DNA from: Candidatus Methanomethylophilaceae archaeon
Lineage (GTDB): Archaea; Thermoplasmatota; Thermoplasmata; Methanomassiliicoccales; Methanomethylophilaceae
Assembly: GCA_944322255.1 (NCBI GenBank)
Contig: CALUOK010000008.1
Coordinates: 1 to 64,000, forward strand
DNA length: 64,000 nt
Direction of reading: 5' to 3'
Shown here: positions 8-16,868 of the stretch, one piece after another
How positions within the stretch are numbered: the first letter of the stretch is position 1
How the letters are laid out: each line of letters opens with the position of its first letter
Program-made: the position numbers and the translations under genes
The notes under the pieces: model-generated
What the model was told of the DNA's origin: nothing
The model's database searches: none
The model's input: only the letters and a program-made list of their open reading frames with translations

Positions 8-3000
8 ATGAATGCGAATGTAACAAAAACGAACGGAGTGAAACTCCTCGCTGCCGTCATGGTCTTGGCCATGGTGTTCGCAGGTGTCGCCGTAGTCCTG
101 AGTGACTCTGAGGTAAACGCTGCCGACACTTCTGCAACGGTATCCTCTATGGAGGAACTTAAAGCGGTTTCGAGTGAGACAACCATCATCCTTGATGGAA
201 CATTCACAATTAACGAAACTACCGACCTTTCTGATAAGACTGTCATCATCCAGGGAAACATCACTGTGGATGGCAGTTCTGTCACACTTACAGTCGACCG
301 TCAGAAACTTTCCACTGATGGAGGTTCACTTACTGTCAAGAGCGGAGCTACAGTTATTTCTGACTTCGGAAATGCGGGAACTGACATAACAACACTTATC
401 GGAACCAGCAGTCCGGTTGTCAAGCTCGAATCTGGATCGATCACAGTTACCAACATTCCTGCGTACACATCGTCTCCCGGATTCAGCCTTGTTCTTAATG
501 GAACCGCATCTGTTGAGACTGCATACACAGTCTACCAGAACACAACCATTACCGTCAACTCTGGATCTGTCCTGACAATCAACCAGGCGATGACGAACAA
601 TGGAGAGATCCGCAACTACGGAACCATCAACGCTGTTGCAGCCATCAACAACACCAACGGAGAGATCTACGGACAGATTCTCGGTGGAGCCGACAAGGTC
701 ACCGGCAAACCCGTCCAGGACCTCGGCAGCCTCGGATTCACCGACACCGTGAACACCGACACTCCCGTCAGGGGAGATGCATTCCTCTCCGGAAACATCA
801 CCATCCCCGAGGGAATCACATTCACCATCACATCCAACTCCACTCTGGATCTGATGAACTACAACATCACTCTCTACGGAACTCTTGTCGTCGAGAGGAA
901 CGCCACCATCACCAGCACTGGATCCGCCGACAACTCCATCGCCATCATGAGCACCGGTTCCATCCAGAACTCCGGAATCATCGGTGACTCCAAGACCGTC
1001 AGGATCTCCAACGGAGCTGACGCCACCCAGTACGTCGACATGATGGGCGTCTCCGGCGTCAACTTCACAGTCGTGAAAGTCACAGGCGGCACCTACAACC
1101 TCAACGTCTCCGGAGACGTCTCCAGGATCAGCGGTGTGTATGTGCCCACCCTCGTCCTCAACAAGGTCTCCATCAACGCGGACACGACCATAGCCAACAG
1201 GGTCGCCTTCACCGCCACTGACGTCACCGTCGCCAGGAACGTCACCCTCACCGTGAACGGAACCGCCACCGTCGACATCGAGCTCGACAACGGAGCCGGT
1301 TTCGTCTCCGCCGGCGCCGTCACCGGTACCGTCGGTGCCAAATACGGAGTCGTCGGAACAGGAAACGTCATCGGCACCATCGGCAACACCGAGACTCCCG
1401 TCAATGATGTCAACGCGTATGTCACACTGGACGGAAACGCCCGCGGGCTGACTTTCTCCGTCTCCAGGGTCACGATTCCCGGAGAGACCACCTCCACCAT
1501 CGAGCAGAGGTTCTACGTCAACGGAACGGCAGCCCTCGTCGCGGGAACCACATCCAACCCCATCAAAGCCGCGAGCATCGGATTCACCGGAACGATCTTC
1601 GTCGAAGAGCTCCTCTTCGTTCCCGAGGAGATCTCCGTGACCGGAGCGTTCGACCTCTCCGCCGGCGGAACCATCCAGGCGGAGCAGAGGGAAACCGACC
1701 TCGCCATCACCTACACCGGTGCCAAGTACGTCCAGGAGACCACCGTCGAGTCCGTCAAGGTCGAGACCACATACTACACCAACTTCGCCAACGCCATGGC
1801 AGCCATCGGCACCGCCCAGAACGGAGAGATCTTCGTCTCCGGTACCTTCACCGTCAACGAGAACTACACCGTCGGAGCCGGACAGTACATCTCCCTCGAG
1901 GGTAGCGAATCCTACGTGATCACCGTCGGAGAGAACTCCACCATCACCGTGGAGGAGGACGGAACCATCGACAACAACGCCATCGCCAAGATCACCGGAC
2001 AGGTCATCGTCAACGACGGCGGAATGTACAGGCCCACCAACACCGCGACCCAGAGCATCTACGAGGTCAGGACCAACAACGAGGGGACCGGCGTCACCGT
2101 CTACTCCGGATTCAAGGTCGCCCTCGACAACGCAGGCGCTGGCGACGTCATCGAGGTCGTCAGCTCCACCGCCGAGTACAAGGGCAACATGACCATCATC
2201 TCCGGCGTCACCGTGAACCTCGCCGACGGATGCCAGCTCACCGTCACAGGGAACGTCACCGTCCAGAGCGAGGGTGCGCTCAACCTCGGAAGCGGTGCGG
2301 AACTCATTGTCGGAACCGCCGGCAAGACATCCACCGTCAACGTCGCCGGAACCATCGACGCGGAGGACGGAACCCTTTCCGCCACCGACACTGCCACCAT
2401 CAACCTGTACTCCACCGGATCCGTCATCACTTCCGCCGAGATCTCCGGAATCAAGGCCAACAGCGCCTACTACCAGGACGTCACCTACGTCTACACCTCT
2501 GCTGCCGCAGCTGCCGCCTACGCCGCCGAGAACGCCATCACCACCATCTACGCCACCGGAACCTTCTCCGAGGCCGGCGATGTGACCCTCGACGGAATCA
2601 CCCTGAGCATCAAGGGTACCACATCCGACGTCACACTCGGAAACGTCGCCATCAGCAACGGAGCCAAGATCTCCATCGACAGCAGCTCCACTGGTGCCAA
2701 GTACTCCGCGAACGTCTCCGGACTCTCCGGAGAGGGAGACGCCGCCGTCAACAGCACCGTCCAGGTCGTCGACACCGCGGCCGAGATTGCCAGCTCCTCC
2801 GTACTGGGTGCGTCCGGAGCTTACGACTACGCACTGACCATCAGCGCCATCGACGGAAACGTCACCGTCTCCGCCGGTACTGTCGAGCTCACTGCCGATG
2901 ATGAGATCACTGTGTCGATCACCAACGTCGACTCTCTCAGCATCTCCGCCGGAGCCATGCTCGTGATTGGATCCGAGACCGGAATCAGCCTCGGAACCAG

Positions 3001-3949
3001 CACTCCCAGCACGCTCACCAGCAACGACTACCTCGTCAACGATGGAACCATCGCCGTCGAGGCCCAGTTCGATGTTGACGGAACCATGACCATCCCCGGA
3101 ACCATCATCGTCCGCGACGGAGGTGCACTCAACGTCACCGCCGGAATCCTCACCGTCACCGGAGACGTCACCGTCTCCGCCGAGGAGGACCATGAGGGAA
3201 CCATGACTGTCACCGGCAACCTTTACATCGGTGCCGCCCCCGAGATGCTCGGAGACTCCGCTACCGGATCCATCACCGGAACCGTCACTCTCGTTAACAA
3301 CGCGTACGTCGCCGTCTTCAACGGAGCTTCCGTCGCCAACGCGACCATCACCAACGCCACCAACGCTGCTGTGAAGACCACTGCCTTCGTCATCAACGGA
3401 ATCGACTACGCCACGATGTACGCCACCGGCAATGCTGACTTCACAGCGATCAACACGCCTGTAAACACTCTGCAGAACCTCGATTCCGACGAGCGTGCCG
3501 CTCCCAAGTGGTACTCCGGAGAGACCGAGATCACCGGTGGAAACGTCGGAGACTACGCCGAACTCACTGCCGAGATCACCTATGCTGAGGTCGACTTCAA
3601 GATCTCCGCCGGACCCGGACTGACCATCTACATCGATGAGCTCAGGGCTGGAACCACTGGTAGCTTTACAATCGGTGAGCACACCATCACCGTCTACGTC
3701 AACGCCGGATACGAGGGTACCCCCACGATCACCATCAACGGCCAGGCCATCACCGGAGGAACCTTCACCGTCACCACTGATATGATTGATGGTGACAACG
3801 TCATCTACGCCACCGGAGCATCCCCTGCCACCGGAACCACCTCTGGCGGAGACGACGGAATGGGTCTCACCGAGATCCTGCTTATTATCCTCGTGATCCT
3901 GATCGTCGTCATGGCCATCATGGTCGCCCTCAGGCTGATGAGGAGCTGA
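8..3949 (+). CDS. Giant secreted, membrane-anchored repeat surface protein (1313 aa)
   Basis: Adhesin-like surface protein. Residues 1-40 form a signal peptide: basic start, hydrophobic core, then an ASADT-like AAD site near residue 39. The body is a long run of short Gly/Thr/Ser/Val-rich beta-strand units with many GT(I/L)xVxxG turns, as in beta-solenoid adhesins. The last 30 residues form one strongly hydrophobic helix (starting GMGLTEILL) ending in LRLMRS, so the protein is probably exported and anchored by its C-terminus. The start lies 7 nt into the window, but the bases just before ATG match those before the next gene, so it is probably complete. The first 600 nt are clearly more AT-rich than the rest. 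No enzymatic motif is visible. Confidence 0.85.
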   Translation: MNANVTKTNGVKLLAAVMVLAMVFAGVAVVLSDSEVNAADTSATVSSMEELKAVSSETTIILDGTFTINETTDLSDKTVIIQGNITVDGSSVTLTVDRQKLSTDGGSLTVKSGATVISDFGNAGTDITTLIGTSSPVVKLESGSITVTNIPAYTSSPGFSLVLNGTASVETAYTVYQNTTITVNSGSVLTINQAMTNNGEIRNYGTINAVAAINNTNGEIYGQILGGADKVTGKPVQDLGSLGFTDTVNTDTPVRGDAFLSGNITIPEGITFTITSNSTLDLMNYNITLYGTLVVERNATITSTGSADNSIAIMSTGSIQNSGIIGDSKTVRISNGADATQYVDMMGVSGVNFTVVKVTGGTYNLNVSGDVSRISGVYVPTLVLNKVSINADTTIANRVAFTATDVTVARNVTLTVNGTATVDIELDNGAGFVSAGAVTGTVGAKYGVVGTGNVIGTIGNTETPVNDVNAYVTLDGNARGLTFSVSRVTIPGETTSTIEQRFYVNGTAALVAGTTSNPIKAASIGFTGTIFVEELLFVPEEISVTGAFDLSAGGTIQAEQRETDLAITYTGAKYVQETTVESVKVETTYYTNFANAMAAIGTAQNGEIFVSGTFTVNENYTVGAGQYISLEGSESYVITVGENSTITVEEDGTIDNNAIAKITGQVIVNDGGMYRPTNTATQSIYEVRTNNEGTGVTVYSGFKVALDNAGAGDVIEVVSSTAEYKGNMTIISGVTVNLADGCQLTVTGNVTVQSEGALNLGSGAELIVGTAGKTSTVNVAGTIDAEDGTLSATDTATINLYSTGSVITSAEISGIKANSAYYQDVTYVYTSAAAAAAYAAENAITTIYATGTFSEAGDVTLDGITLSIKGTTSDVTLGNVAISNGAKISIDSSSTGAKYSANVSGLSGEGDAAVNSTVQVVDTAAEIASSSVLGASGAYDYALTISAIDGNVTVSAGTVELTADDEITVSITNVDSLSISAGAMLVIGSETGISLGTSTPSTLTSNDYLVNDGTIAVEAQFDVDGTMTIPGTIIVRDGGALNVTAGILTVTGDVTVSAEEDHEGTMTVTGNLYIGAAPEMLGDSATGSITGTVTLVNNAYVAVFNGASVANATITNATNAAVKTTAFVINGIDYATMYATGNADFTAINTPVNTLQNLDSDERAAPKWYSGETEITGGNVGDYAELTAEITYAEVDFKISAGPGLTIYIDELRAGTTGSFTIGEHTITVYVNAGYEGTPTITINGQAITGGTFTVTTDMIDGDNVIYATGASPATGTTSGGDDGMGLTEILLIILVILIVVMAIMVALRLMRS

Positions 3950-4292: not shown

Positions 4293-7200
4293 ATGAATAT
4301 GAACGTGAACAAAACGAACACAGGAAAACTCCTGGTCGCTGTGCTTGCTATGGCGATGGTCATTGCTTCCGCGGCGGTTATTGTTGGCGGAAGCAATGTT
4401 AGTGCCGACCCCATTGATGGTGATGCACTCATAGCCATGGCTGACGAAGACCAGGTAATCAACCTGAATGAGAACATCGTTCTCTCTGAAGCTGTCGTTC
4501 TCGATGGCTACACCATCAACTGCGGTAAATTCAACATTACCACCGCGTACGACATCAGTGGAGGAACCACAGGACTTACAATCAACTCCACCGGATCCTC
4601 CAACAACACAATCACGCTTTCGGGTAATGCCAACATCAGCAATGTGAAATTCAACCTCACCGAGGATGCTGACAACGCTGGAATGATGCCCTTCGCCATC
4701 AACACTTCCTCATTCACATCCACCATCACCAACTGCACATTCGCCTCCACGGGTGGAAATGCCATCTACGGAGCTGTCCACACCAACGGTACTGCCGGAG
4801 CGACCTGCGAGGTCACTCTGAACGACTGCCAGATGGACTCCCACGGAGTCGTTTACTACAAGGGTGCATCTCTCAAGATAACCAACGGCTCTGAAGTGAA
4901 CCTCAGTTTCGCACTGACGAACAAGACAGCACTCAGCGATGACAACCTCACAGTCTCCTCTGACAGCAATATCGGATGGACCATCTTCGGCTGGCCCTCC
5001 TCCACTACTGGCGGAACCGATATGGGCATCGCTACAGAGTACCAGATCAACAAGAATTCCAATCTGGGTGAGATCTCTGCTGGAGATGCCGTCGCCGATG
5101 GCGATAAAATCGAACTGAAGATCAACACCAACGTCACAGCTTACGGCGGAGAGGGAATCGACACTCTGACCGTCGCCGAGAAAAAGACCTTCACCGTCAA
5201 AGAGGGAGAGGCCTACAACGGCGGAACCATCACTGGAAAGGGAAACCTTGTCTCCAAGGGTGCGACCGTCAACTCCACGATCACCGTGACCGGAAACGTC
5301 ACTATGGATGGAATCGCCCTCGGTAACGACCTCATCGCCATCCAGGACACCGTCCTCCCGATCTCCGGTAACGCCTACCTCACCGAGGACCTCGTGATCC
5401 CCAGCGACAAGACCCTCAGGTTCGTCAGCGGATCCACCCTCGAGCTCAACGGACATCACATCACTGTCCAGGGAACCCTCGAGGTCGAGTACGGAGCGGT
5501 CATCAAATCCAACCAGAACGATGCGAACGAGTACATCGCCCTCGACAGGAACGGAGCCATCGCCAACGAGGGAACCATCGGATACGGCGCCAACGCCGTC
5601 ACCATCAAGGTCCTCAATGATGCCAACGCCAGCTACTCCGGCAAGGGATCTGTCGAGATGCAGAACGTTTCCGGAGTCGTGCTTTCCGTCGTCAACAGCG
5701 GCGAGTCCACTACCGGAACTCCTGCCAAGCCGATTTACATCCTCGCCGTCACCGGAAGCATCTACGCCGAGGACGACAGCCAGGCGACCCACAGCATCAC
5801 CGTCAAGGATGCCAGGATCATCAAGGACGTCGTCATCGGACAGGGAGTCTCCCTGATCACCAACAGTACCGAAAAGACCTACCTCTACAACGGCGCCAAC
5901 ATGACCGTCGATGGTAGCGTCAATGCATCCGGACTCGTCATGATGAACGGATCCACCATCAGCCTCAACGGTGCTGTTGTTGATAAGATCACCGCCCAGA
6001 CCGGGGACAACGCCATCAACGCCACCACCCCCGCTTACGTCGACACCACTGTAGACCTTGATCCCAACGATAACTATGTCCTCAACGGCCTGGTCCTCAC
6101 CGTCGGACAGGTCAACTACGTCGACGACAGCAAGACCCCTGCAGTCACCATGGTCTCCCAGAGGCTGTACCTTGACGGAACCGTCACTGCAGTCTATACG
6201 GGAACCGAAGCTCAGGGCACAGTTCCCCCACAGCTCGGAACAATCACCGTGAACAACCCGACCGGTGGAAAGTCCTACGTCGCCGCCGACTCCGTCCTCT
6301 CGCTCGGAGCCGGAATCAACATGGTCGGTAGTGGAACCGTCGTGCTCGGACAGCTCCAGTACGTCGACACCTCCCTCGTTGCTTCTGGATTCGTGGGAAC
6401 CCAGTACTCCGTCCAGTCCACCGGTGCCACCGGCGCGAAGACCACCACGTACTACATCACCACCTTCGAGAACGCCTACGGCGAGATCGCCAACGCGTAC
6501 CAGACCACCATCAACGTCTACGGAAACCTGGACATCGAGATCGACATCGACCTCCAGGCCAAGCAGAGGATCACCTTCAACGGAACCGCCGACATCGCCG
6601 AGGACAACACCGTCATCGTGAGGAGCCAGGCGGCCATCGGACAGATCAACGACGTCCAGGGAGTGCTCACCAAGTACAACGGAGCCTCCTGCAACGCCCC
6701 CAAGTCCTTCGTCGTCGAGAAGAAGACCACCGAGTACACCTCCTGGTCCGGACTCGGACCCGCCATCGCGGGCGCCCAGCCCGGAGACGTCATCGACGTC
6801 AAGAACAACGGCACCGTCAAGAACGACATGACCGTCCCCGCCGGTGTCACTCTCAACATCGACAACGGAGCCACCCTGAAGTTCGAGAAGGACCTCACCA
6901 TCGCCGAGACCGCCAAGCTCGTCAACAAGGGTGGAATCGACATGGCCGGAGACAAATCCAAGATCTCCGTCGCCGGAGAGCTCACATCCACCGAGGGAAC
7001 CATCGCGTTCTCCAAGGCCCCCGAGGCCAACAAGGCCGACACAAGGGCCATCAACGTGACCGGCACCGCCGTCATCGACACGAACAAGATCACTGTGGCT
7101 GGAGACAGCCTGGACTTCGCCGACGTCATCAACGGCGCCGTGTACCTCAACAACGACAACCAGACAGTCCTCACCACGGTCACCGCGGCCATCACCGGAG

Positions 7201-9020
7201 TCGAGGCCACCGACGCGATCCAGAAGACCGTCACCCTCTACGGAAACGTCAACGAGTCCGCCGACATCACCCTCGGATCCGCGACCACCCTCAAGCTCGA
7301 CGCCAGTGCCGAGGTCGTCCTCGGAACCGTCAACCTGACCGCCGCCGAGACCGGCAACGGTGCCAAGGTCGACGCCTCTGTCGGAAAGCTCACCGCCACC
7401 GTCGCAGGCGCCGTCGGTGCCGTCGACATCGACGCGACCACCAACGTCACCGTCCAGGTCACTTCCTACACATCTGCGGACAACGTGAAGTCCGACTACG
7501 TCATGCTGGGAGGAACCATCGACGGCTCCGTGACCGTCGCCTCCGGAAAGGTCAACGCCGCCGGACTCACAGTTGACGGAGACGAGAACCTGCTCACTGT
7601 GGCCTCCGGAGCCACACTGGCCGTCGAGAACGTCGCCGACACCGCACAGACTCTGACAGTCGGAGCCACCGGCAAGGACCTCAAGTCCCCCGCCCTCGTC
7701 GTCGACGGAACCCTCCTGTTCGATGGAGGAGAGCTCGAAGAGGCCAATGACAGGCAGATCATCCTCGTCAACGGAACCATGACCCTCGCCGACGAGGCGA
7801 ACGTCGATGTCGACGGAATCCTGAACGTCACCGGAACCCTCGACATCTCCACCACAGCCGACAAGGAGGCAGTCCTGAACGTGTACAGCCACATGACCGT
7901 CGGAACCGAGCCCACCACACTCGGTGTCGGCGGATCCGTCAACGGACAGGTCTCTCTGACAACCCCCGCCTTCATCATCGCCTACTCCGGTGCAGACGTC
8001 TCCGGAATGATCGTCAACCCCGATGCCAACGGAACCACGGCCGTCGACACAGAGTTCTTCGTCAACGACACCCTGTACATGACCGCCTACACCGCCAAGG
8101 CCATCAACGTTGAACTCAGCAAGGTCCTCGAGGTCCCCGAGTTCAAGATCTCCGGATTCGAGACCAAGGTTACCGGAACCGACGCCTACGCCCTGTCCGT
8201 CACCGGAACCGTCAACGTCTCCACCGTCGAGAACGACACCGGAGCCTTCGACGTCAAGGGAACCGGAGTCACCGTCGGAACCCCCGCCGAGTCCCTCGGA
8301 GTAGGGGGATCCGTCGTCGGACCCGTCACCATCGACGCCAACAACTACATCGTGGTCTTCGCTGGCGCCGACATGTCCGGGGCCCAGATCAACGAGGCCA
8401 ACGGGGAGTCCACCGCCGAGACCACCGAGTACTACATCAACGGCACCCTGTTCGCCACCGCGTACGCTCAGGGAACCGTCGCCATCGGAACCCCCGTCAC
8501 CGTCGCCATGGTGAAGGAGATCTCCGGAATCGACACCTCCAGCCTCACCACAATCGAATGGACCGATGCCGAGGGCAAGGACCTGACCGTCCCCAACGTC
8601 GGAGACATCGAGGCCGTCTACGTCAAGTTCGACCCCGCCAAGGCCTGGGTCCAGTACTCCGCAGGCAGCCAGATCTCCCTGTACGTCGATGGCGTCAGGG
8701 TCACCAGCGGTGACGAGGTCCAGCTCGCTGTCGGAACCCACACCGTCACAGCCACCGTCAACCCCGGCTACACCGGAGACGTCACCATCACCTTCAACGG
8801 CCAGGCCGTCACCGGTGAGTTCACAGTGACCTCCGACATGGTCGGAAACGCTCAGACCGACGCAGTGGTCCTGTCCGCCACCGGACAGATCTCCGTCGAC
8901 ACCGGATCCTCTGGATCCTCCTCCGACGGAATGGGCCTCACCGAGATCCTGCTGGTCATCCTGGTCATCCTGATCGTCGTCATGGCCATCATGGTCGCCC
9001 TCAGGCTGATGAGGAGCTGA
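4293..9020 (+). CDS. Giant secreted, membrane-anchored repeat surface protein (1575 aa)
   Basis: Paralogue of the preceding giant gene. It has an N-terminal signal peptide (MNMNVNKTNTGKLL, then a hydrophobic stretch to about residue 38), a very long Thr/Val/Gly-rich beta-strand repeat body and a C-terminal hydrophobic helix nearly identical to that of gene 1, ending LRLMRS. A domain before the anchor (about residues 1440-1530), with a GTHTVTATVNPGYTGD-type stretch, matches residues about 1190-1260 of gene 1. The two proteins share leader, C-terminus and 3' flank but diverge in the N-terminal third, so this is a tandem duplication with a diversified exposed part. Role in adhesion or host contact is inferred only. 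Confidence 0.85.
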   Translation: MNMNVNKTNTGKLLVAVLAMAMVIASAAVIVGGSNVSADPIDGDALIAMADEDQVINLNENIVLSEAVVLDGYTINCGKFNITTAYDISGGTTGLTINSTGSSNNTITLSGNANISNVKFNLTEDADNAGMMPFAINTSSFTSTITNCTFASTGGNAIYGAVHTNGTAGATCEVTLNDCQMDSHGVVYYKGASLKITNGSEVNLSFALTNKTALSDDNLTVSSDSNIGWTIFGWPSSTTGGTDMGIATEYQINKNSNLGEISAGDAVADGDKIELKINTNVTAYGGEGIDTLTVAEKKTFTVKEGEAYNGGTITGKGNLVSKGATVNSTITVTGNVTMDGIALGNDLIAIQDTVLPISGNAYLTEDLVIPSDKTLRFVSGSTLELNGHHITVQGTLEVEYGAVIKSNQNDANEYIALDRNGAIANEGTIGYGANAVTIKVLNDANASYSGKGSVEMQNVSGVVLSVVNSGESTTGTPAKPIYILAVTGSIYAEDDSQATHSITVKDARIIKDVVIGQGVSLITNSTEKTYLYNGANMTVDGSVNASGLVMMNGSTISLNGAVVDKITAQTGDNAINATTPAYVDTTVDLDPNDNYVLNGLVLTVGQVNYVDDSKTPAVTMVSQRLYLDGTVTAVYTGTEAQGTVPPQLGTITVNNPTGGKSYVAADSVLSLGAGINMVGSGTVVLGQLQYVDTSLVASGFVGTQYSVQSTGATGAKTTTYYITTFENAYGEIANAYQTTINVYGNLDIEIDIDLQAKQRITFNGTADIAEDNTVIVRSQAAIGQINDVQGVLTKYNGASCNAPKSFVVEKKTTEYTSWSGLGPAIAGAQPGDVIDVKNNGTVKNDMTVPAGVTLNIDNGATLKFEKDLTIAETAKLVNKGGIDMAGDKSKISVAGELTSTEGTIAFSKAPEANKADTRAINVTGTAVIDTNKITVAGDSLDFADVINGAVYLNNDNQTVLTTVTAAITGVEATDAIQKTVTLYGNVNESADITLGSATTLKLDASAEVVLGTVNLTAAETGNGAKVDASVGKLTATVAGAVGAVDIDATTNVTVQVTSYTSADNVKSDYVMLGGTIDGSVTVASGKVNAAGLTVDGDENLLTVASGATLAVENVADTAQTLTVGATGKDLKSPALVVDGTLLFDGGELEEANDRQIILVNGTMTLADEANVDVDGILNVTGTLDISTTADKEAVLNVYSHMTVGTEPTTLGVGGSVNGQVSLTTPAFIIAYSGADVSGMIVNPDANGTTAVDTEFFVNDTLYMTAYTAKAINVELSKVLEVPEFKISGFETKVTGTDAYALSVTGTVNVSTVENDTGAFDVKGTGVTVGTPAESLGVGGSVVGPVTIDANNYIVVFAGADMSGAQINEANGESTAETTEYYINGTLFATAYAQGTVAIGTPVTVAMVKEISGIDTSSLTTIEWTDAEGKDLTVPNVGDIEAVYVKFDPAKAWVQYSAGSQISLYVDGVRVTSGDEVQLAVGTHTVTATVNPGYTGDVTITFNGQAVTGEFTVTSDMVGNAQTDAVVLSATGQISVDTGSSGSSSDGMGLTEILLVILVILIVVMAIMVALRLMRS

Positions 9021-9134
9021 AAACACCGAGATCCGAAAGGAAGCAAGGGTTGAACGCAAACAGAACGCGAAAATGGGTACATCTGCTCCCGCGTCGAGAG
9101 AAGCGCAACTCACGGAAACCTGAAGAGCAAACGC

Positions 9135-9162
9135 CCTCCCCGGAGTTAAGGGGCCGGGGAGG
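9135..9162 (+). terminator. Hairpin after giant surface gene 2
   Basis: Second exact copy of the CCTCCCCGG / CCGGGGAGG hairpin with the same 10-nt loop as at 4058-4085. A short T-rich stretch follows. Confidence 0.6.
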
Positions 9163-9291
9163 CACATTCTTTAATCATTCTGTCGCGTTCGGACAGGTCG
9201 CTGTTGATGAAACGCGAACTATCGGACTTAGAGCACGAAGGTTAAAATCACATGGCGTCATTCCCACATTAATGTCTTAAAATGACATAGC

Positions 9292-9302
9292 GGGGGGGGG
9301 GG
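9292..9302 (+). repeat. Homopolymer G11 tract upstream of surface gene A
   Basis: Eleven consecutive Gs, 45 nt before the gene A start. A TATA-like box (CTTAAAAT) sits at 9276-9283, so the expected transcription start, about 25 nt downstream, falls at or just after the tract. A length change by slippage would alter promoter spacing or the leader, not the reading frame. In-frame TAG at 9288-9290 excludes translation through the tract in the gene A frame. Confidence 0.7.
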
Positions 9303-9329
9303 TCCGCCATTCTGGATGTTCCTCCCCGT

Positions 9330-9343
9330 CCTCCGCACGGAGG
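9330..9343 (+). promoter_or_regulatory. Hairpin covering the Shine-Dalgarno of gene A
   Basis: CCTCCGCACGGAGG can fold on itself, and its 3' arm is the GGAGG ribosome binding site 4 nt before the ATG at 9348. In RNA this would mask the SD, suggesting translational control. Confidence 0.5.
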
Positions 9344-9347
9344 AAAG

Positions 9348-11252
9348 ATGAACATCTCAAAAACACTCGTCGCGACGGCCCTGGTGGCGGTCATGATCGT
9401 GTCCATGGTCGCTGTGGCGGACGAGTCCGATGCGGTCGATGCGCCGGACAAACTGACTTTCATCGTCGACGGCCAGGGGTACGACTCCCTCGAGTCGGCG
9501 ATTGGAGCAATAGAATCCGAGGGAACGATAACGGTGGAGGTCTCCGAAACGGGGACCGGAACCCCTATCGCCTCTTCCATCACCATCCCTGCAGGCAAGG
9601 ACATCACCATTGACCTGAACGGATGTACGGTTCAGACTACCGAGAGGATATATGTGCTCGGTTCTCTGACGATCGAGGACAACTCTCTGCCAACCGGATA
9701 TGAGCCGCAGGTCAGCGACGATTACAAACAGGTGACATACGAGACGGGAGAACTCGCCAATGTGCACAGTGTCAGAGAAGATGAAGCGGTTACTGTCGTT
9801 GTCAAGGAAGGCGGAATGCTGACCCAGAACAGTGGCACTATCTCATCGTTGAAGAACTACACCGTCAGCATAAACGGGAACAGAACTCCGGGAAACAGCA
9901 GCCCGATAGCCTCTTCGATGGTCATGAACGGAGGATATCAGATCGGTGCCGAAGGCGGTCCGGGAATCTTCGGAAACGGCGCTCTCCTTGATGTCAACGG
10001 CGGGGTCATCTGCGGTACGGAGAACTCTCCTGTTGCAGGAAACGGTAGTGTCGATCCAACGACCGATAATGGGGGGACGGAGATCAACATCAACGGCGGC
10101 ACACTCATCGGACTGATGGGCGATGCCAACCGTCAGAGCGGATATGCCTCCAACGCGATATATCATCCGCATAGCGGTGTCCTCAACATCAACGGAGGGA
10201 CGATCGTCGCTGAAAGGGGTCCGGCAGTAGTCATGCGCGCCGGACAGCTCAACATCACCGGTGGAGACTTCATTTCTACTGGAGCCGGAACAGATGCATA
10301 CAGCGGATACGGAAAAGTTGGAGACAGTTCATTCATAGTGAAGCCATCGGCAATCATCTATGAACTCAAGTCCAACTACCCAGGTTTAGCCACCGATCCC
10401 AAAGGCATCGAGATAACAGGTGGTTCATTCTCGTCGGATATCGAAGACGTTGTGCTTCTTGTAGAAGGAGACACATCTGAGGTCAACATCGACGTCAGCA
10501 TTTCGGGAGGGACTTTCTCAGGCGATGTATCCGATTACGTGGCTAGTGGATGCCAGCAGGTCGGCAACATCGTCGGATCTGTCGATCAAAGTGCATCCAT
10601 CTCTGGCAACAATGCCAACGTGGAGTCCAGCTCTGAGACAGACACTGTGGTCATCCCTGTCGACGGAGAGGGTGCAGAAAACGCCACCGTCTCCGTGAGC
10701 GTCAACGCTTCCGGAAACATGCCGGAAGGCGAGGGGGCTGATTCCAAGGTGTCCATGGTCTTCCAGGGAGATATCGAAGGTAACGGCCTCGCAGTCTCTG
10801 CCAAGCAGGTAGCTTCCAGCGCACTTCCAGATTCTGTCAACAAGAACAACCTCCTGGCGACCTTCGATCTCTCCGTCCAGGGTGCCACTGCTGATAAGTT
10901 CAACCTGACCGTGACTGTCTCCATCCCGACACCTGTCGGAATGGTCCTGTCCAACGCCTGGGTCATCTACTATGAAGATGGTGTGGAAAAGGAAAAAATC
11001 GGTGCGACCGTCAACGGTTCCGAGATCACATTCAGCACCACCCACACTTCCGCATATTCCGTCTACGGTGAGTACGAGGAGGAGGGAAGCGGGTCTGGAA
11101 CCGGTTCCTGGGACGATGACGAGGACCTTCCCCCGTTCATCCCCACCCAGCCCGCCGAGGACGACAACACCGTGACCATCGTCGCCTGTGCCGCAGCCGC
11201 CGCTGTGGCAGCGATCATGGCGGTCTTCTTGATCATCGACAGGAAGGGATGA
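9348..11252 (+). CDS. Surface protein A, secreted, C-terminally anchored (634 aa)
   Basis: First of five related surface proteins. It has a signal peptide at residues 1-27 (hydrophobic core ending VADESDA), then a right-handed beta-helix-like body rich in INGGT(L/I) and ITGG turns (about 30-380), a more ordinary beta domain (about 430-570, with NLTVTVSIPTPVGM), an acidic linker and the family C-terminus LPPFIPTQ, a membrane helix VTIVACAAAAAVAAIMAVFLI and DRKG. ATG follows GGAGG by 4 nt. A winged-helix gene begins 3 nt after the stop. Unlike B, C and D its coding frame is intact; its G-tract lies in the promoter/leader. Confidence 0.85.
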   Translation: MNISKTLVATALVAVMIVSMVAVADESDAVDAPDKLTFIVDGQGYDSLESAIGAIESEGTITVEVSETGTGTPIASSITIPAGKDITIDLNGCTVQTTERIYVLGSLTIEDNSLPTGYEPQVSDDYKQVTYETGELANVHSVREDEAVTVVVKEGGMLTQNSGTISSLKNYTVSINGNRTPGNSSPIASSMVMNGGYQIGAEGGPGIFGNGALLDVNGGVICGTENSPVAGNGSVDPTTDNGGTEININGGTLIGLMGDANRQSGYASNAIYHPHSGVLNINGGTIVAERGPAVVMRAGQLNITGGDFISTGAGTDAYSGYGKVGDSSFIVKPSAIIYELKSNYPGLATDPKGIEITGGSFSSDIEDVVLLVEGDTSEVNIDVSISGGTFSGDVSDYVASGCQQVGNIVGSVDQSASISGNNANVESSSETDTVVIPVDGEGAENATVSVSVNASGNMPEGEGADSKVSMVFQGDIEGNGLAVSAKQVASSALPDSVNKNNLLATFDLSVQGATADKFNLTVTVSIPTPVGMVLSNAWVIYYEDGVEKEKIGATVNGSEITFSTTHTSAYSVYGEYEEEGSGSGTGSWDDDEDLPPFIPTQPAEDDNTVTIVACAAAAAVAAIMAVFLIIDRKG

Positions 11253-11255
11253 GCC

Positions 11256-11537
11256 ATGTCCGGGAAGGAGCATCCGATCAGCGTGCTGTGCGATGCGCAC
11301 ACCATCCCGATGCTGATGTTCCTGAGGGAGAACGGTCCCAGCTGCAAGACGGACATATACGCGTCCGTCGGACGCAGCGCCAACATGCCGCTGAAGATAG
11401 CCAGGCTGGAAGGCTCCGGACTGGTCCGCGTCGACGAGGTCGGCATCTCGGACGTGGTCGGGCTCACCGAGCTGGGCGAGTCCGTGGCGGCGAGGCTCGG
11501 CGAGATAGACTCGCTGATGCTGGAACAGAGACCTTGA
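11256..11537 (+). CDS. Small winged-helix DNA-binding protein, partner of surface protein A (93 aa)
   Basis: The protein is a compact winged helix of MarR/HxlR-like size. The HPISVLCDAHTIPMLMFLRENG segment would be helix 1; KTDIYASVGRS...MPLKIARLEGSGLV would be the helix-turn-helix; VVGLTELG the wing and last helix. It starts 3 nt after gene A's stop, so the two are almost certainly co-transcribed and translationally coupled. Near-identical proteins follow surface genes B, C and D. It probably regulates the surface genes, perhaps its own cassette; the target is unknown. Exact family assignment is uncertain. Confidence 0.85.
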   Translation: MSGKEHPISVLCDAHTIPMLMFLRENGPSCKTDIYASVGRSANMPLKIARLEGSGLVRVDEVGISDVVGLTELGESVAARLGEIDSLMLEQRP

Positions 11538-11544
11538 AAACAAA

Positions 11545-11579
11545 GGGCCGTCCGGGTTCGGGCGGTCCGATTCCTTTTT
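11545..11579 (+). terminator. Terminator of cassette A
   Basis: A 9-bp stem (with two G-U pairs) between GGGCCGTCC and GGGCGGTCC, followed by ATTCCTTTTT, lies 7 nt after the regulator stop. Confidence 0.75.
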
Positions 11580-11707
11580 CCCGTTGATCTGAAGCGCAGT
11601 CGACACTGTGTGTAGCTGTTCTCATTTCGTGAAATATCTTTCATGCTTTACGGTCATAGTTGCAAATACTATCTTAAGTCAGAAGCGCATTCCACCTTCA
11701 CGGGCCG

Positions 11708-11727
11708 GTGCCGCAACTGTGCGGCAC
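11708..11727 (+). promoter_or_regulatory. Perfect leader hairpin/palindrome of surface gene B
   Basis: GTGCCGCA, a 4-nt loop, then TGCGGCAC: a perfect 8-bp inverted repeat 20 nt before the gene B ATG and just upstream of its GGAAGGTG ribosome binding site. It could be an RNA hairpin in the leader or an operator for a dimeric winged-helix protein. Confidence 0.5.
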
Positions 11728-11747
11728 GGCATCGGAAGGTGAAACAG

Positions 11748-13515
11748 ATGCACAGGAAAACTACCATGGCGGTGCTCGCCGTCGCGGTGGCGCTTCTCGG
11801 AGTCGTAGCCATTGTGCAGACAGGGGGGGGGGGTCGACGAGGTCGACGCCACCGATGCTGGCACAGTGGAGGAACTCAAAGGGGCGTTCACCAATGGAGG
11901 GGACTATGCCCTTACTTCGGATATAACAATCTCCGAGGCCTTGACATTGGGTCAGGATGTCATCCTCGATCTCGATCTCAATGGGCATACAATCACAGCG
12001 AATGTGACAAGTGCTGATAACGGTATTATCTCTGTCAGTGGTGACCTGACGATAAGGGACAGCAGTCCCGAAGGAACTGGCAAGATTATCAGTAGCAAGA
12101 ATTTCAACATCATTCAGACCCAGTCTGGATCGAACCTCACCATCAAATCTGGAATTTTCGAACTCTCAAGCACCGATGGCGGAGACATAGTCCGTGTAAG
12201 CGGGAACGCTCTCATCGAGGGCGGGGAGTTCATCTACCACACCCAACCAGGCAAGAACGGATATCCGATCCGTGCCATTAACGGAGGAAACGTAACCATC
12301 AACGACATGCACATCGACTCCGACAACTACGGAATCCAGGTCAGGACAGACAAAGGTATGTCACCGACTTCCGTGGAGATCAACGGGGGGACCATAGAGG
12401 CCGCATTCTACGGTCTCGTGGTGTTGGGAAACGGTGAGACGCCCCTCGATAACAACAATGCCGTACTGACAGTCAACGATGTGACGGTCATAATGAACAA
12501 CACCACAAACCCCACTGATTCCGAATCTGTATGTATCGGAACCACAGCGAATAGCGGCAACTATGCCGGATTCACAATCACCGTGAACGGCGGAACCTTC
12601 CAGGGCAATTCCGGATGCTATTTCCCTGGTGAAGGGGACTACAATATCAACGGCGGACACTTCCTGACGACTCAGTACGGAATCAGAATCGCCGCGGGAG
12701 ATCTTACCATCGGTAAGGATGCCGTAATCGAGACAAATGTGAACTACGAATCCAAGCCTCTGGAGACTGCCACCAAACCGACGGGTACCATGGGCCCTCT
12801 GGTCATAGGTAAGGTTGGTGATGGATATACGGGCAATCTGAATGTCGTTCTCGACGGAGGAACGCTCAGGAACAATCTGGGAAATGCCGTTACGGCTTAC
12901 GACAAGTGCATGGGACTGGATGGTTTGAAGAGCTACTTCATTTCCTTTAACGCCAACAGCGGAAACATCATAGGAAATGTCGAATTCAATCACGATGAAT
13001 CAGATAGTAATTCATCCAAGCTCAGCTTCGAGCTCAACGGTGCCACAATCGAGGGAAAGCTCTCTGTCGATACCGCCATGGAGGGATTGAAGACATCATT
13101 CAATTCCGGAGTCATCACAGGTGGAACAGAAGGTGTCGACGCGCCTGCCACACATGTCGCGGATCTCGACTATCTCGGAACCACTCTGGAGTTCATAGGG
13201 GCCGGTTTCCAGCTTCCGAACGACCTGCCCCCATCCAGGGACAACTACACGTTCCTCGGTCTGAGTCTGAACTCCGGTTCGAGCAGTGCTCAGTACCAGC
13301 CTGGAGATTTCGTCAGTGCCAGCGGTGATGTGACCGTTTACGCTGTGTGGGAGAGCAACTCCATCAACATTCCTAGTGACGATGATGAACTCCCGCCGTT
13401 CATCCCCACCCAGACCTCCAATGACGACGACACCGTGACCATCGTGGCCTGCGCCGCAGCCGCCGCAGTGGCAGCGATCATGGCGGTCTTCCTGATCATC
13501 GACAGGAAGGGATGA
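11748..13515 (+). CDS. Surface protein B, phase-variable, currently out of frame
   Basis: ATG at 11748, preceded by GGAAGGTG, encodes a signal peptide (MHRKTTMAVLAVAVALLGVV...) that runs into an 11-G tract (11823-11833). In this sequence the frame after the tract leads to a stop near 12017. The long downstream frame (DEVDATDAGTVEELKGAF onward) is one base off; ten Gs would join them into a 588-aa protein. The body is a parallel beta-helix-like repeat protein with many INGG turns, then an InlB-like bacterial repeat-type segment (NYTFLGLSLNSGSSSAQYQPGD, about residues 480-550), LPPFIPTQ, membrane helix and DRKG. The only start inside the long frame, TTG at 11812, would lack the signal peptide. 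A regulator gene follows 3 nt after the stop. Confidence 0.8.
11823..11833 (+). repeat. Homopolymer G11 tract within gene B start region
   Basis: Eleven Gs directly after the signal-peptide codons. The count is 3n+2; 3n+1 (10 or 13) is needed to fuse the signal peptide to the body, so the tract acts as a frame switch if it slips. Confidence 0.85.
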
Positions 13516-13518
13516 CCC

Positions 13519-13803
13519 ATGCCGGCGAAGGAGCATCCGATCAGCGTGCTGTGCGATGCGCACACCATCCCGATGCTGATGTTCCTGAGGGAGAACGGCC
13601 CCAGCCGCAAGACCGACATCTACTCTGCCGTCGGCAGGAGTGCTAGCATGCCCCAGAAGATCGACAGGATGGTCTCCGCCGGACTGGCGGAGGTCAGTCC
13701 TGTGGGGATCTCCGAGGTGGTAGGGCTCACCGGCCTTGGAATGGCGGTTGCTGACAGGCTCGCCGACATCGACGGCCTGATGGCCGACGCTGGCTCACAG
13801 TGA
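13519..13803 (+). CDS. Small winged-helix DNA-binding protein, partner of surface protein B (94 aa)
   Basis: Close paralogue of the regulator after gene A; the first 35 residues are nearly the same (KEHPISVLCDAHTIPMLMFL). The helix-turn-helix spans about residues 30-60 (KTDIYSAVGRSASMPQKIDRM). Divergence is concentrated in the recognition helix/wing and C-terminal end (AGLAEVSPVGISEVVGLTGLG), which may give each copy its own target. ATG is 3 nt after the gene B stop. Because gene B is out of frame upstream, coupled translation of this regulator may change with tract length. Confidence 0.85.
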   Translation: MPAKEHPISVLCDAHTIPMLMFLRENGPSRKTDIYSAVGRSASMPQKIDRMVSAGLAEVSPVGISEVVGLTGLGMAVADRLADIDGLMADAGSQ

Positions 13804-13820
13804 CCTGTGGAAACACCTTA

Positions 13821-13842
13821 GGGGACCTTCGGGGTCCCGTCT
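13821..13842 (+). terminator. Terminator of cassette B
   Basis: Stem GGGGACC / GGGTCCC closing a TTCG tetraloop, followed by GTCTTAT, 17 nt after the regulator stop. Confidence 0.7.
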
Positions 13843-14041
13843 TATGTTCTTCATAATGGTCTGTAACAACAGATGTTGCAGCGATTGTGTTTCATTGAGG
13901 CGCAGTTGCATCATCTGTCTTCAGGATTCAAATGTCGGGCGTATCGACGTTGCTTTGTTCATACTCGATATACCATTATTCATGCATAGAGCAGAAATAT
14001 GTAGTCCAAAATATGTTCCACTACATATTCTCTATAGTGCT

Positions 14042-14058
14042 GGAGCTTTTGAAGCTCC
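14042..14058 (+). promoter_or_regulatory. Leader hairpin of surface gene C
   Basis: GGAGCTT, 3-nt loop, AAGCTCC: a perfect 7-bp inverted repeat 16 nt before the gene C ATG and just before GAGAGGATG. The left arm contains GGAG. It parallels the leader hairpins of A, B and D. Confidence 0.5.
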
Positions 14059-14074
14059 CTGAGAGGATGATATT

Positions 14075-15429
14075 ATGAACGGAAACAAATCGAAAAACGC
14101 GCTCGGGGGGGGGCCTTTGCCGTCACGCTTGCTGTCGTGGCGGTCATGCTCGCCTGTCCGTTCGCTGTTTCATCGGAATCTGCAGCAGATGCCGATTCCT
14201 ATGATTCAATAGATTTTGAGAACATGGACGTATTGCCGGACCTGTCGAATTTATCTACGTTCACCTTTACACAAGACTACAGGCCGACATCCGGAAACAC
14301 TTCCAACCGTACCATCAACGATTCTATAGAAATCGATGGAGCTGAAAAAACGCTCTATGGAGGATTCTCTTTCGACACCCAGGTGAATGATGGAGAGTCA
14401 GAAACATTCGACGTGGTAATCAAGAATCTCACGCTGGACGGTCATTTTCTGACAAACGGATATGGCATCAGCACCAGCAATGAGGACAACATGCCTGTTC
14501 GTGCAGTGAACCTGACACTTGAGAACTGCATCATAAAGAACTTCACCAGCAAGGGCCTCTACATGACCAGTTTCCAATCTCTCATCGTCAAGAACTGTAC
14601 GTTCGTAGACAATGCAACTGGGGATGACACAAACATCAAGGGTGACTATGCGTTCGATGTGAACCTCATAGGTGTCAAGAACGTCACCATCGAGATCACC
14701 GGCTGCACATTCTCTGGTGATTGCGGGGAGAAGTCCGCAGTCAAGATTACCCAGCGTGGAGTCAGCGGCAGTTCCGATGACAAGAATGATTTCACAATCA
14801 CGGAACCCGCTTGCATCGAGTATGTCAAGATGTCGGGCAACACCTTCTCAACTGCAGACAGGACCGATGCAGACATAACCCTCGGAAGCAGGATCGCTAA
14901 TAACACCACTGGGAACAAGTCCTACACCTCGGCATTCGATGTCAGCATCGTTGCGGATGGGACCACTCGTGTTACGAAGTCGTCTGCAGTAGGCGAGTAT
15001 ATGAACATCGTTCTGACCGACGGTTCCAACCTGACATCCACTTCCGAGATCGTCACAGGTATGGAGCAGACTGGAAAGAGTGCGTTCGTTCTTGAATCCG
15101 GTTCCGCCGTCATCAGCGGTTACATACCGTCCACCATCTCTCTGTCCATCGCCCAGGATGCGTCCGCATCTGTGGGTGCCGAGGGGCTGAAGAGCGACGG
15201 TATGATCTACACCGTCAACAACAACCTCTCCGGATCCGTCGAGGGCAACCAGGTCGTCAACACCGACATCTCGGTCAACCCCGGATACGACGATGACGAG
15301 GACCTCCCGCCGTACATCCCGAGCCAGTCCTCCAACGATGACGACACCGTCACCATCGTCGCCTGCGCCGCCGCAGCCGCGGTCGCCGCCATTCTCGCGG
15401 TGTTCCTGGTCATCGACAGGAAGGGATGA
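14075..15429 (+). CDS. Surface protein C, phase-variable, currently out of frame
   Basis: ATG at 14075 (after GAGAGGATGATATT) begins MNGNKSKNALGGG, running into a G9 tract at 14105-14113. In the present frame translation leaves the gene; with ten Gs it continues as AFAVTLAVVAVMLACPFAV, completing a signal peptide, and reads on to 15429 as a 451-aa protein. The body has beta-helix-like repeats (NLTLENCIIKNFTSKGLYMT type) like pectate-lyase-fold surface proteins. The C-terminus has LPPYIPSQ, a membrane helix and DRKG. Protein E (17352-18773) is a full-length paralogue. A GTG at 14137 would start only within the signal peptide. Confidence 0.8.
14105..14113 (+). repeat. Homopolymer G9 tract within the signal peptide of gene C
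   Basis: Nine Gs beginning at codon 11 of gene C. One more G (10) would place the hydrophobic core of the signal peptide and the whole body in frame, so the sequenced state is one base short. Confidence 0.85.
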
Positions 15430-15432
15430 GCC

Positions 15433-15711
15433 ATGTCCGACGGGGAGCATCCGATCGCCGTGCTGTGCGACACGCACGTCATACCGATCCTGATGTTCCT
15501 GGACGGGAGCGGCCCCAGCCGCAAGACCGACATCTACGCGGCGGTGGGGAGGAACTCCAACATGCCCCTGAAGCTGGAGAGGATGGCCGGGGCCGGACTC
15601 GTCGACATCAGCCCCATGGGGAACTCGGAGTTCGTCGGGCTGACCGCCATGGGCGAGTCCGTGGCCGGGAGGCTCCGGGAGATCGACGGGCTGATGGCCG
15701 GAGATCGCTGA
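15433..15711 (+). CDS. Small winged-helix DNA-binding protein, partner of surface protein C (92 aa)
   Basis: Third copy of the cassette regulator: EHPIAVLCDTHVIPILMFLDGSG, helix-turn-helix KTDIYAAVGRNSNMPLKLERM (about 30-52), wing NSEFVGLTAMG. It starts 3 nt after the gene C stop, so it is coupled to a gene that is at present out of frame. The conserved N-terminal half and variable recognition region repeat the pattern of the other copies. Confidence 0.85.
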   Translation: MSDGEHPIAVLCDTHVIPILMFLDGSGPSRKTDIYAAVGRNSNMPLKLERMAGAGLVDISPMGNSEFVGLTAMGESVAGRLREIDGLMAGDR

Positions 15712-15740
15712 CCGCTTCCGATACCCGTGTAAACTCCTTA

Positions 15741-15757
15741 GCGGCCTCCGGGCCGCT
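15741..15757 (+). terminator. Terminator of cassette C
   Basis: Perfect stem GCGGCC / GGCCGC around a TCCG tetraloop, 29 nt after the regulator stop. Confidence 0.65.
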
Positions 15758-15862
15758 CATCACATCATCTGTACATTATGCAGAGTGCATCATGTTCTGT
15801 ACATCGCGTTCAGAGATACTTAGATAACGAACATCAGCGTTCACCATCACCGAGTGAGGCTC

Positions 15863-15884
15863 CCGGACCTGGAACAATCCGGGC
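15863..15884 (+). promoter_or_regulatory. Leader hairpin of surface gene D
   Basis: CCCGGA, 10-nt loop, TCCGGG, 21 nt before the gene D ATG. It is followed by a G5 run and the GGAGG ribosome binding site at 15896-15900. Same position as the hairpins of A, B and C. Confidence 0.4.
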
Positions 15885-15905
15885 GGGGGCGCACGGAGGT
15901 ATAAC

Positions 15906-16868
15906 ATGGACAGAACAGTCACAGCCGTCCTCGTCGCCGCCATCATGGCGATGTCCTGCTGCGTCCTGCTGGTCTCCGACGAGGGGGATGCGGCGGAGAC
16001 GAAATAGGTCGGCACCTACCAGGATCTTCTGAGTGCCATACAAGATGCTATTGATGGAGATACGATTCAGCTCACTGCTGACATCAAAGTCGATGCGATG
16101 CTAAGCATCAATGAAAAGAAATCAGTTACTCTTGATCTGAACAACCATTCTATCACATCAAGTGCTGGTTTTACAGGTACAGATAATGAGAAGAATAACG
16201 ACAAGCATCTAATCAATGTCGATTCTTCTACAGTTACTATAACCAATGGTGTACTCAAAACCACAGGATTGAACAAGCACGTTCTCAATGTGTATGACAA
16301 CAGCGATGTTACCCTGTTCAATGTCACTCTGGATCATACGAATGCTATGGCCGGAGCACCTCTGGTCGTCAATGGAGCCAAAGTGACTCTTGAAGGCAAG
16401 AACACATTCATCACAGGAGACAAATCTTGGTATGCCATCAATGTGGACAGTGGTAGCAACTCAGGTCCCACGGCATCCCTGACTACGAACCCCTCCACTG
16501 AACTTGTTTTCAAGGGACTTAAAGAGGAAGCAATACACATCAGTGCTCCTAATGAAAATGGTGAGAAGTTCTCAGTTACTCTCGGTCAGGATACCGTAGT
16601 TCGTACCGACATCGAGAATTTCAAACTCGTTGTATCTGAGGGCGAGGAAGGCATCACGGTTGATGATTCCAACGTGGTGATTGTCCCCGAGACTGAGTCC
16701 ACTCCCGAACCAACCCCCACTCCGGGATATGACGATGAGGAGGATCTCCCTCCGTATATTCCGAGCCAGTCCTCCAATGATGATGACACCGTCACCATCG
16801 TCGCCTGCGCCGCAGCCGCAGCCGTCGCAGCCATCCTGGCCGTCTTCCTGGTCATCGACAGGAAGTGA
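15906..16868 (+). CDS. Surface protein D with in-frame TAG at codon 34 (320 residues if read through)
   Basis: ATG at 15906 follows GGAGGTATAAC. A signal peptide (MDRTVTAVLVAAIMAMSCCVLLVSDEGDA) leads to TAG at 16005-16007, and the same frame continues without break (VGTYQDLLSAIQDAIDGDTIQL) to the family C-terminus LPPYIPSQ, membrane helix and DRK. The body is shorter than in A-C (about 180 residues, with TVTITNGVLKTTG turns). Either TAG is decoded (pyrrolysine, if this is a pyrrolysine-using methanogen) or the gene is switched off by a nonsense mutation. The first usable start after TAG, ATG 16098, would give an unexported fragment. Confidence 0.75.

Follow-up and report, generated by a model that had tools for sequence, protein, structure and literature searches.

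Results

Surface genes and G tracts in the window

The window (i.e., the whole 64,000-nt stretch of DNA analyzed here) belongs to a genome that encodes methyl-coenzyme M reductase (mcrA), and its host is therefore a methanogenic archaeon, probably of the Methanomethylophilaceae or a closely related group. Three genes for surface proteins, referred to here as genes A, B, and C, follow one another on the plus strand (Table 1). The sequence-only reading had counted three runs of at least nine Gs in the window, all at the 5' ends of these surface genes, which implied one mechanism for all three. There are exactly three such runs (9292 to 9302, 11823 to 11833, and 14105 to 14113), and their placement stands, but the first is not a frame switch: it sits 46 to 56 nt 5' of the gene A start codon, in the leader, and the gene A frame is intact. 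The proposition that all three window tracts are frame switches was ruled out for this reason.

Table 1. Features of the gene A, B, and C region, in window positions
Feature	Positions	Strand	Basis
Gene A leader G11 tract; leader class, not a frame switch	9292..9302	+	
Gene A leader, two CU-rich copies and Shine-Dalgarno GGAGG (9339-9343); helices predicted to compete with the G tract	9319..9343	+	
Gene A, 634-aa surface protein, frame intact	9348..11252	+	
Small winged-helix-like regulator after gene A	11256..11537	+	BLASTP 3e-12 to L067 regulator (other species)
Strong hairpin in gene B leader, taking in the Shine-Dalgarno (GGAAGGTG)	11693..11742	+	Predicted energy
Gene B start codon and signal-peptide segment, 25 codons	11748..11822	+	Translation MHRKTTMAVLAVAVALLGVVAIVQT; hydropathy
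Gene B G11 putative contingency tract; as assembled OFF, ON = 7, 10, 13	11823..11833	+	
Gene B body, in another frame than the signal peptide at G11; beta-rich in the model, likely adhesin-like	11834..13515	+	
Predicted C-terminal membrane anchor, common to genes A, B, and C (gene B coordinates)	13423..13515	+	
Small regulator downstream of gene B, of the same kind as after gene A	13519..13803	+	Sequence reading
Gene C start codon and first ten codons	14075..14104	+	Translation
Gene C G9 putative contingency tract; as assembled OFF, ON = 7, 10, 13	14105..14113	+	Translation
Gene C body, surface protein; 451 aa in total in the ON state	14114..15429	+	

The 25 codons from the gene B start finish at position 11822, so that the G11 tract opens on a codon boundary. 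They encode an N-terminus with a basic start followed by a hydrophobic core (hydropathy peak, 3.19 over a 15-residue span). Past the tract, the gene B frame reads VDEVDATDAG... and remains open for 559 codons, with DDDTVTIVACAAAAAVAAIMAVFLIIDRKG as its final residues. We take this body frame to be real because of the 559 open codons and because its C-terminus is shared with the neighbors (78 to 85% identity to the C-termini of genes A and C). Translation with different tract lengths yielded products of 587, 588, and 589 aa at 7, 10, and 13 Gs, respectively, and of 88, 58, 89, 59, and 90 aa at 8, 9, 11, 12, and 14 Gs, respectively. A unit change in the tract thus alters the expression frame, the two parts being joined only at 7, 10, and 13 Gs. 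Since G11 joins no frame, gene B is OFF in the assembled genome, a state read from a single assembly. The earlier description of the locus is borne out by these translations: the G11 tract has exactly the coordinates given, it separates the signal peptide from a secreted body in a different frame, 10 or 13 Gs would join them (as would 7), and the sequenced state, with its 89-aa product, is OFF. The hairpin in the gene B leader has a predicted folding energy of -35.1 kcal/mol, computed for positions 11691 to 11760.

Gene C starts 560 nt past the end of gene B and consists of a start codon at 14075, ten codons, the G9 tract, and a signal-peptide core; at the assembled G9, its product is 45 aa. 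A Pfam scan of the small regulator between genes B and C gave no match, nor did an Rfam search of window positions 9000 to 16000. Elsewhere in the window (8 to 3949 and 4293 to 9020), very large plus-strand open reading frames of 1313 and 1575 aa oppose minus-strand open reading frames of nearly equal length (1260 and 1485 aa, respectively).

Predicted gene B protein

In the ON state, the gene B product is predicted to be exported and to carry a C-terminal transmembrane anchor. As a secreted anchored protein, it falls within the gene classes typical of contingency loci (i.e., surface structures and DNA modification). A single-sequence structural model of the body (the 11812 open reading frame) consisted mostly of beta strands at residues 14 to 308, with block pLDDT values of ~50 to 93, the remainder being unreliable. 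The best matches among solved structures were the binding regions of Lactobacillus reuteri SRRP adhesins, at a weak E value of 0.08. On the basis of this model and these matches, gene B is likely adhesin-like.

A protein search for gene B orthologues returned one distant C-terminal match among the genome contigs and none among the viral contigs. Within the genus, matches were limited to the C-terminal anchor, short repeats, and weak N-terminal stretches, with no full-length orthologue. The genome, viral, and genus collections searched yielded no ON allele of gene B, and an exact DNA search of the viral contigs with the left flank of the gene B tract gave no match.

Run-length distributions

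G/C runs of 3, 4, 5, 6, 7, and 8 nt occurred 1308, 368, 105, 10, 0, and 0 times in the window, respectively, followed by single runs of 9, 11, and 11 nt. Dinucleotide shuffles of the window led to an expectation of 1.86 G9 matches versus 7 observed, and 4 of 100 shuffles reached at least 7. The mere presence of a long G run is therefore weak evidence, and we rejected the idea that G runs are rare by composition alone.

The two-peaked length distribution, by contrast with mere presence, is strong evidence beyond chance and has the same shape in the window, the genome, and the genus. The genome (1.885 Mb; 31 contigs) contains 18 G runs that are 9 to 13 nt long, and length 8 is not represented. 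Summed over 31 species of the genus, the counts were 254 for length 7, 34 for length 8, and 211 for lengths of at least 9, the last figure comparing with ~5 predicted by extrapolating the fall from 7 to 8. The tracts fetched from the genus peaked at 11 Gs (9 Gs, 15 tracts; 10, 29; 11, 41; 12, 16; 13, 5). At all three scales, long pure repeats thus exceed the genome's own background, which indicates that some process creates or maintains runs of ~9 to 13 Gs. Other lineages also have long G runs according to a class-wide survey. One genome of a different genus in the same family (G142) has 97 runs of at least 9 Gs in 1.7 Mb, far above the other family genomes sampled.

Genes associated with the tracts

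Gene classes were assigned by reading the flanks of all 18 runs in the genome. Surface genes account for twelve tracts, all at the 5' end, and DNA methyltransferase genes for three, and one tract is at the TATA box of an ABC-transporter gene; of the other two, one adjoins a group II intron and one lies near a gene resembling TnpB (a candidate, by reading). The surface tracts comprise eight in the 5' leaders of secreted-protein genes, the two putative coding switches of genes B and C, a C13 tract 16 nt 5' of the start codon of another secreted protein, and a G10 tract (L040 5126-5135, minus strand; G000:C24:10625) at the center of a palindrome (TTGATACAAAATGA ... TTCATTGTATCAA) that lies 5' of the gene for a very large secreted protein. 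The tract beside the intron (G12, L037 4953-4964; G000:C4:123952, where it is C12 on the opposite strand) touches the 3' end of the intron.

In each of the three methyltransferase genes, the repeat lies inside the gene and changes its frame, as in phasevarions. The N6/N4 enzyme at C1:156708 (Pfam, 1e-13; L034 [G000:C1:151500-161500] 5209-5220, minus strand) is OFF at its G12 and would be ON at G11; the C5 enzyme at C2:84602 (Pfam, 1e-49) is ON at G11; and the N6/N4 enzyme at C2:87592 (Pfam, 7e-24) is OFF at G10. A methyltransferase gene on the viral contig IMGVR_UViG_3300013382_000003 specifies a product with 43% identity to the C2:87592 enzyme and has a G9 tract (L189 3031-3039) at the homologous codon, likewise out of frame. 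The C2:84602 and C2:87592 genes (L036, G000:C2:80000-93000, 4603-4613 and 7593-7602) are separated by 3 kb and follow a serine resolvase gene; they possibly belong to a mobile element that carries its own phase-variable methylation.

The transporter tract, a C11 run, immediately adjoins the TATA box, and tracts of 11, 10, and 12 nt lie beside the same gene in three further species. These C10 to C12 tracts are directly upstream of TATA, where the TFB recognition element would be (L039 955-965, L052 3044-3054, L065 2977-2986, and L104 near 2564). In other species, tracts also occur in LRR surface proteins and in small regulators. The regulators in question are winged-helix-like, from the family represented next to the surface genes (L067, L068/L073, L070/L079, L076, and L118), with some tracts N-terminal and one near the C-terminus. 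Long tracts are found in closed one-contig genomes too.

Leader tracts

The gene A tract represents a layout in which an AT-rich promoter region is followed by the G tract, ~20 nt of spacer, two CU-rich copies, a Shine-Dalgarno sequence (e.g., GGAGG), and the start codon. At least 20 surface genes in five species have it, the start codon mostly lying 41 to 49 nt past the tract. Among the matches listed for CCTCCG..GAGGA..ATG hairpins at surface-gene starts in this genome, 8 of 8 had a tract. Viral contigs that matched the leader pattern were dismissed as apparent chance matches. The AT-rich region is 35 to 60 nt 5' of the leader tracts, a position that suggests that the tract is transcribed.

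Because MAFFT aligned the two leader helices poorly, pairing was judged by folding and shuffling. We folded 19 leaders with the tract length set by hand; these leaders are mutually related and do not amount to independent tests. Mean Shine-Dalgarno accessibility was 0.05, 0.07, 0.38, 0.54, and 0.60 at 9, 11, 13, 14, and 15 Gs, respectively. The gain from 11 to 14 Gs was 0.475, compared with 0.065 ± 0.044 when the spacer was shuffled (40 sets; maximum, 0.173), and the stems to the Shine-Dalgarno were longer than those in shuffled sequences.

For gene A and its relatives (not gene B), the tract could therefore be a length-tuned RNA switch, which we regard as a serious possibility falling somewhat short of an even chance. 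In the models, a tract of up to ~11 Gs would pair with the first CU-rich copy, leaving the second to sequester the Shine-Dalgarno, and a tract of 13 to 14 Gs would pair through both copies and release it. The architecture kept in five species, the modeled step from 11 to 14 Gs well above shuffled spacers, and the lengthened stems argue for such a switch. Against it, the support consists of computed energies for related leaders with unmapped transcription starts, and a transcriptional effect or an antisense RNA would be an alternative.

Tract lengths in close relatives

Homologous tracts were compared between two closely related congeners (G005 and G006; one assembly per species). At the first locus (6.0 kb; 22 substitutions), the sole indel was two Gs in the tract (9 versus 11). 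The sole indel was also at the tract in the second (6.0 kb; 105 substitutions; 20 versus 11, the longer one adjoining Ns) and in the third (3.2 kb; 83 substitutions; 12 versus 6 Gs). Pooled, ~15 kb with 210 substitutions had indels confined to the tract, which indicates that the tracts are fast-changing positions. A fourth pair differed by 13 versus 11 Gs and contained other indels as well. The G20 of L066 was rejected as an exact length since it adjoins Ns. Not all G9 sites are switches: two sites (the TauE-type gene L077 and the site L078) lacked pure runs in the sister genome, where the G9 run is interrupted, and were rejected. The length variation between the two congeners was thus seen at loci other than gene B, whose tract has no orthologue.

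Mismatch repair

MutS (PF00488) and NucS/EndoMS (PF01939) were absent from 31 of 31 genomes of the genus, with control genomes positive in both searches. The genus therefore seems to be without both known mismatch-repair routes, and its runs of 9 to 13 Gs for that reason probably slip frequently. In vitro, slippage by archaeal replicative polymerases is seen on a template that contains a hairpin and short direct repeats (PMC4134008).

Discussion

A probable slipped-strand switch in gene B and its alternatives

We consider it very probable that the gene B G11 tract is phase variable by slipped-strand mispairing and switches a surface adhesin-like gene that is OFF in the assembly. Replication slippage would add or remove Gs and thereby place the gene B body in or out of the signal-peptide frame, with 7, 10, and 13 Gs giving ON and 8, 9, 11, and 12 giving OFF; in the ON state, the protein would be exported and held by its C-terminal transmembrane segment. 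The proposal that tract slippage acts as a frame switch, already made from the window, gains support from what the sequences contain: the tract and the exact split of the frames around it, the intact body, the many tracts distributed over the genome and genus, the length differences between close congeners, and the missing repair genes. Gene C, as a second coding switch of the same design, and the viral methyltransferase tract at a homologous codon point in the same direction. Against these stand the single assembly, in which a homopolymer error is possible, a composition that makes long G runs only mildly unexpected, the G9 sites elsewhere that are not switches, and the collections searched, which held no ON allele or full-length orthologue of gene B. 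We infer reversible switching within the species, a phenotype associated with it, and the adhesin role of gene B.

An assembly or sequencing error, the true tract being G10 and gene B simply intact, is very unlikely in our view. Errors of this kind arise most often in homopolymers, the assembly is a draft of 31 contigs, and one congener tract (L066) adjoins Ns. However, an error at one site leaves unexplained the 18 tracts at contingency-type genes and the peak at 9 to 12 across 31 species; tracts are present in closed one-contig genomes as well, and the gene B tract would be real even if its length were off by one.

We give slightly less credence to slippage of RNA polymerase or the ribosome, which would yield some full-length protein from OFF DNA of unchanged length. 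Long G runs do slip in RNA too, and a shift of one base would suffice, but homologous tracts differ in DNA length between close relatives, at frame-changing and at leader positions, and frame slippage would be of no use to leader tracts. That gene B is a decaying pseudogene, disrupted when a frameshift became fixed in a slippery tract, is the least probable reading, since, for all that the assembled frame is broken and no orthologue shows selection for an intact form, the 559 codons past the tract have no stop or second frameshift, the signal peptide is intact, genes B and C share a design, and many genes of the genus carry tracts in the same length range.

With slipped-strand switching as the preferred reading for gene B, the location of ~16 of the 18 tracts at surface genes, DNA methyltransferases, or a transporter promoter suggests that the genome would carry a set of independent stochastic switches.

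Significance and comparison with known systems

Bacteria are well known for poly-G frame switching by slipped strands. In 99 prokaryotic genomes surveyed (18 archaeal), poly-A and poly-T tracts, but not poly-C or poly-G, were found near gene 5' ends (PMC2831843), and a 2025 review of phase variation mentions archaea solely as a future field (PMC11868660). Our search of the open-access literature, which leaves out most subscription papers, turned up no description of an archaeal genome with poly-G phase variation; within that scope, the view of the sequence-only reading that such switching, familiar in bacteria, is hardly described in archaea is consistent with our results. The mechanism is already known, and a genus-wide switch set in methanogens is undescribed as far as the open-access literature shows. 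We put forward the broader picture tentatively, as a possibility somewhat short of an even chance: in a methanogen genus without known mismatch repair, poly-G tracts would control the surface proteins, the DNA methyltransferases, and some of the regulators (the first genome-wide archaeal set described), and the genus would add a new cis leader switch, with the Shine-Dalgarno sequestered at 11 Gs and freed at 13 to 14. If this is true, phase variation by repeat slippage, studied almost solely in bacteria, exists in archaea too and offers populations a simple way to become heterogeneous in attachment and virus resistance. Genes annotated in these genomes as pseudogenes may in some cases be switchable. 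Switching can be tested directly with existing metagenome reads.

In the halovirus phiCh1, phase variation is a recombinase-driven inversion in a virus; unlike it, homopolymer slippage is proposed here, in a cellular genome. That system shows phase variation in the archaeal world (cited in PMC8371274).

The nearest known parallel to the leader class is the Helicobacter pylori tlpB leader, on which the small RNA RepG acts as a repressor at 7 to 12 Gs and as an activator from 14 Gs upward (PMC8295292). The leader class resembles it in having a 5'-leader G run and a length threshold close to the computed one (11 versus 13 to 14 Gs), and differs in that no small RNA is known, the CU-rich partner is in cis in the same leader, and the leader recurs at many genes.

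As in phasevarions, DNA methyltransferases carry tracts, with three in this genome (two OFF and one ON) plus a viral relative. Unlike the classic Type III mod genes, these candidates include orphan-like N6/N4 and C5 enzymes.

A close likeness is to the poly-G and poly-C loci of Campylobacter, Helicobacter, and Neisseria. The present system differs from these in its archaeal methanogen host, in its many tracts in 5' leaders with a paired Shine-Dalgarno, and in that switching is deduced from genome data. As here, those loci have ~9 to 13 Gs near the starts of surface-protein and DNA-methyltransferase genes, and gaining or losing a single base shifts the frame. In Campylobacter and Helicobacter, mismatch repair is missing or weak, as it appears to be in this genus.
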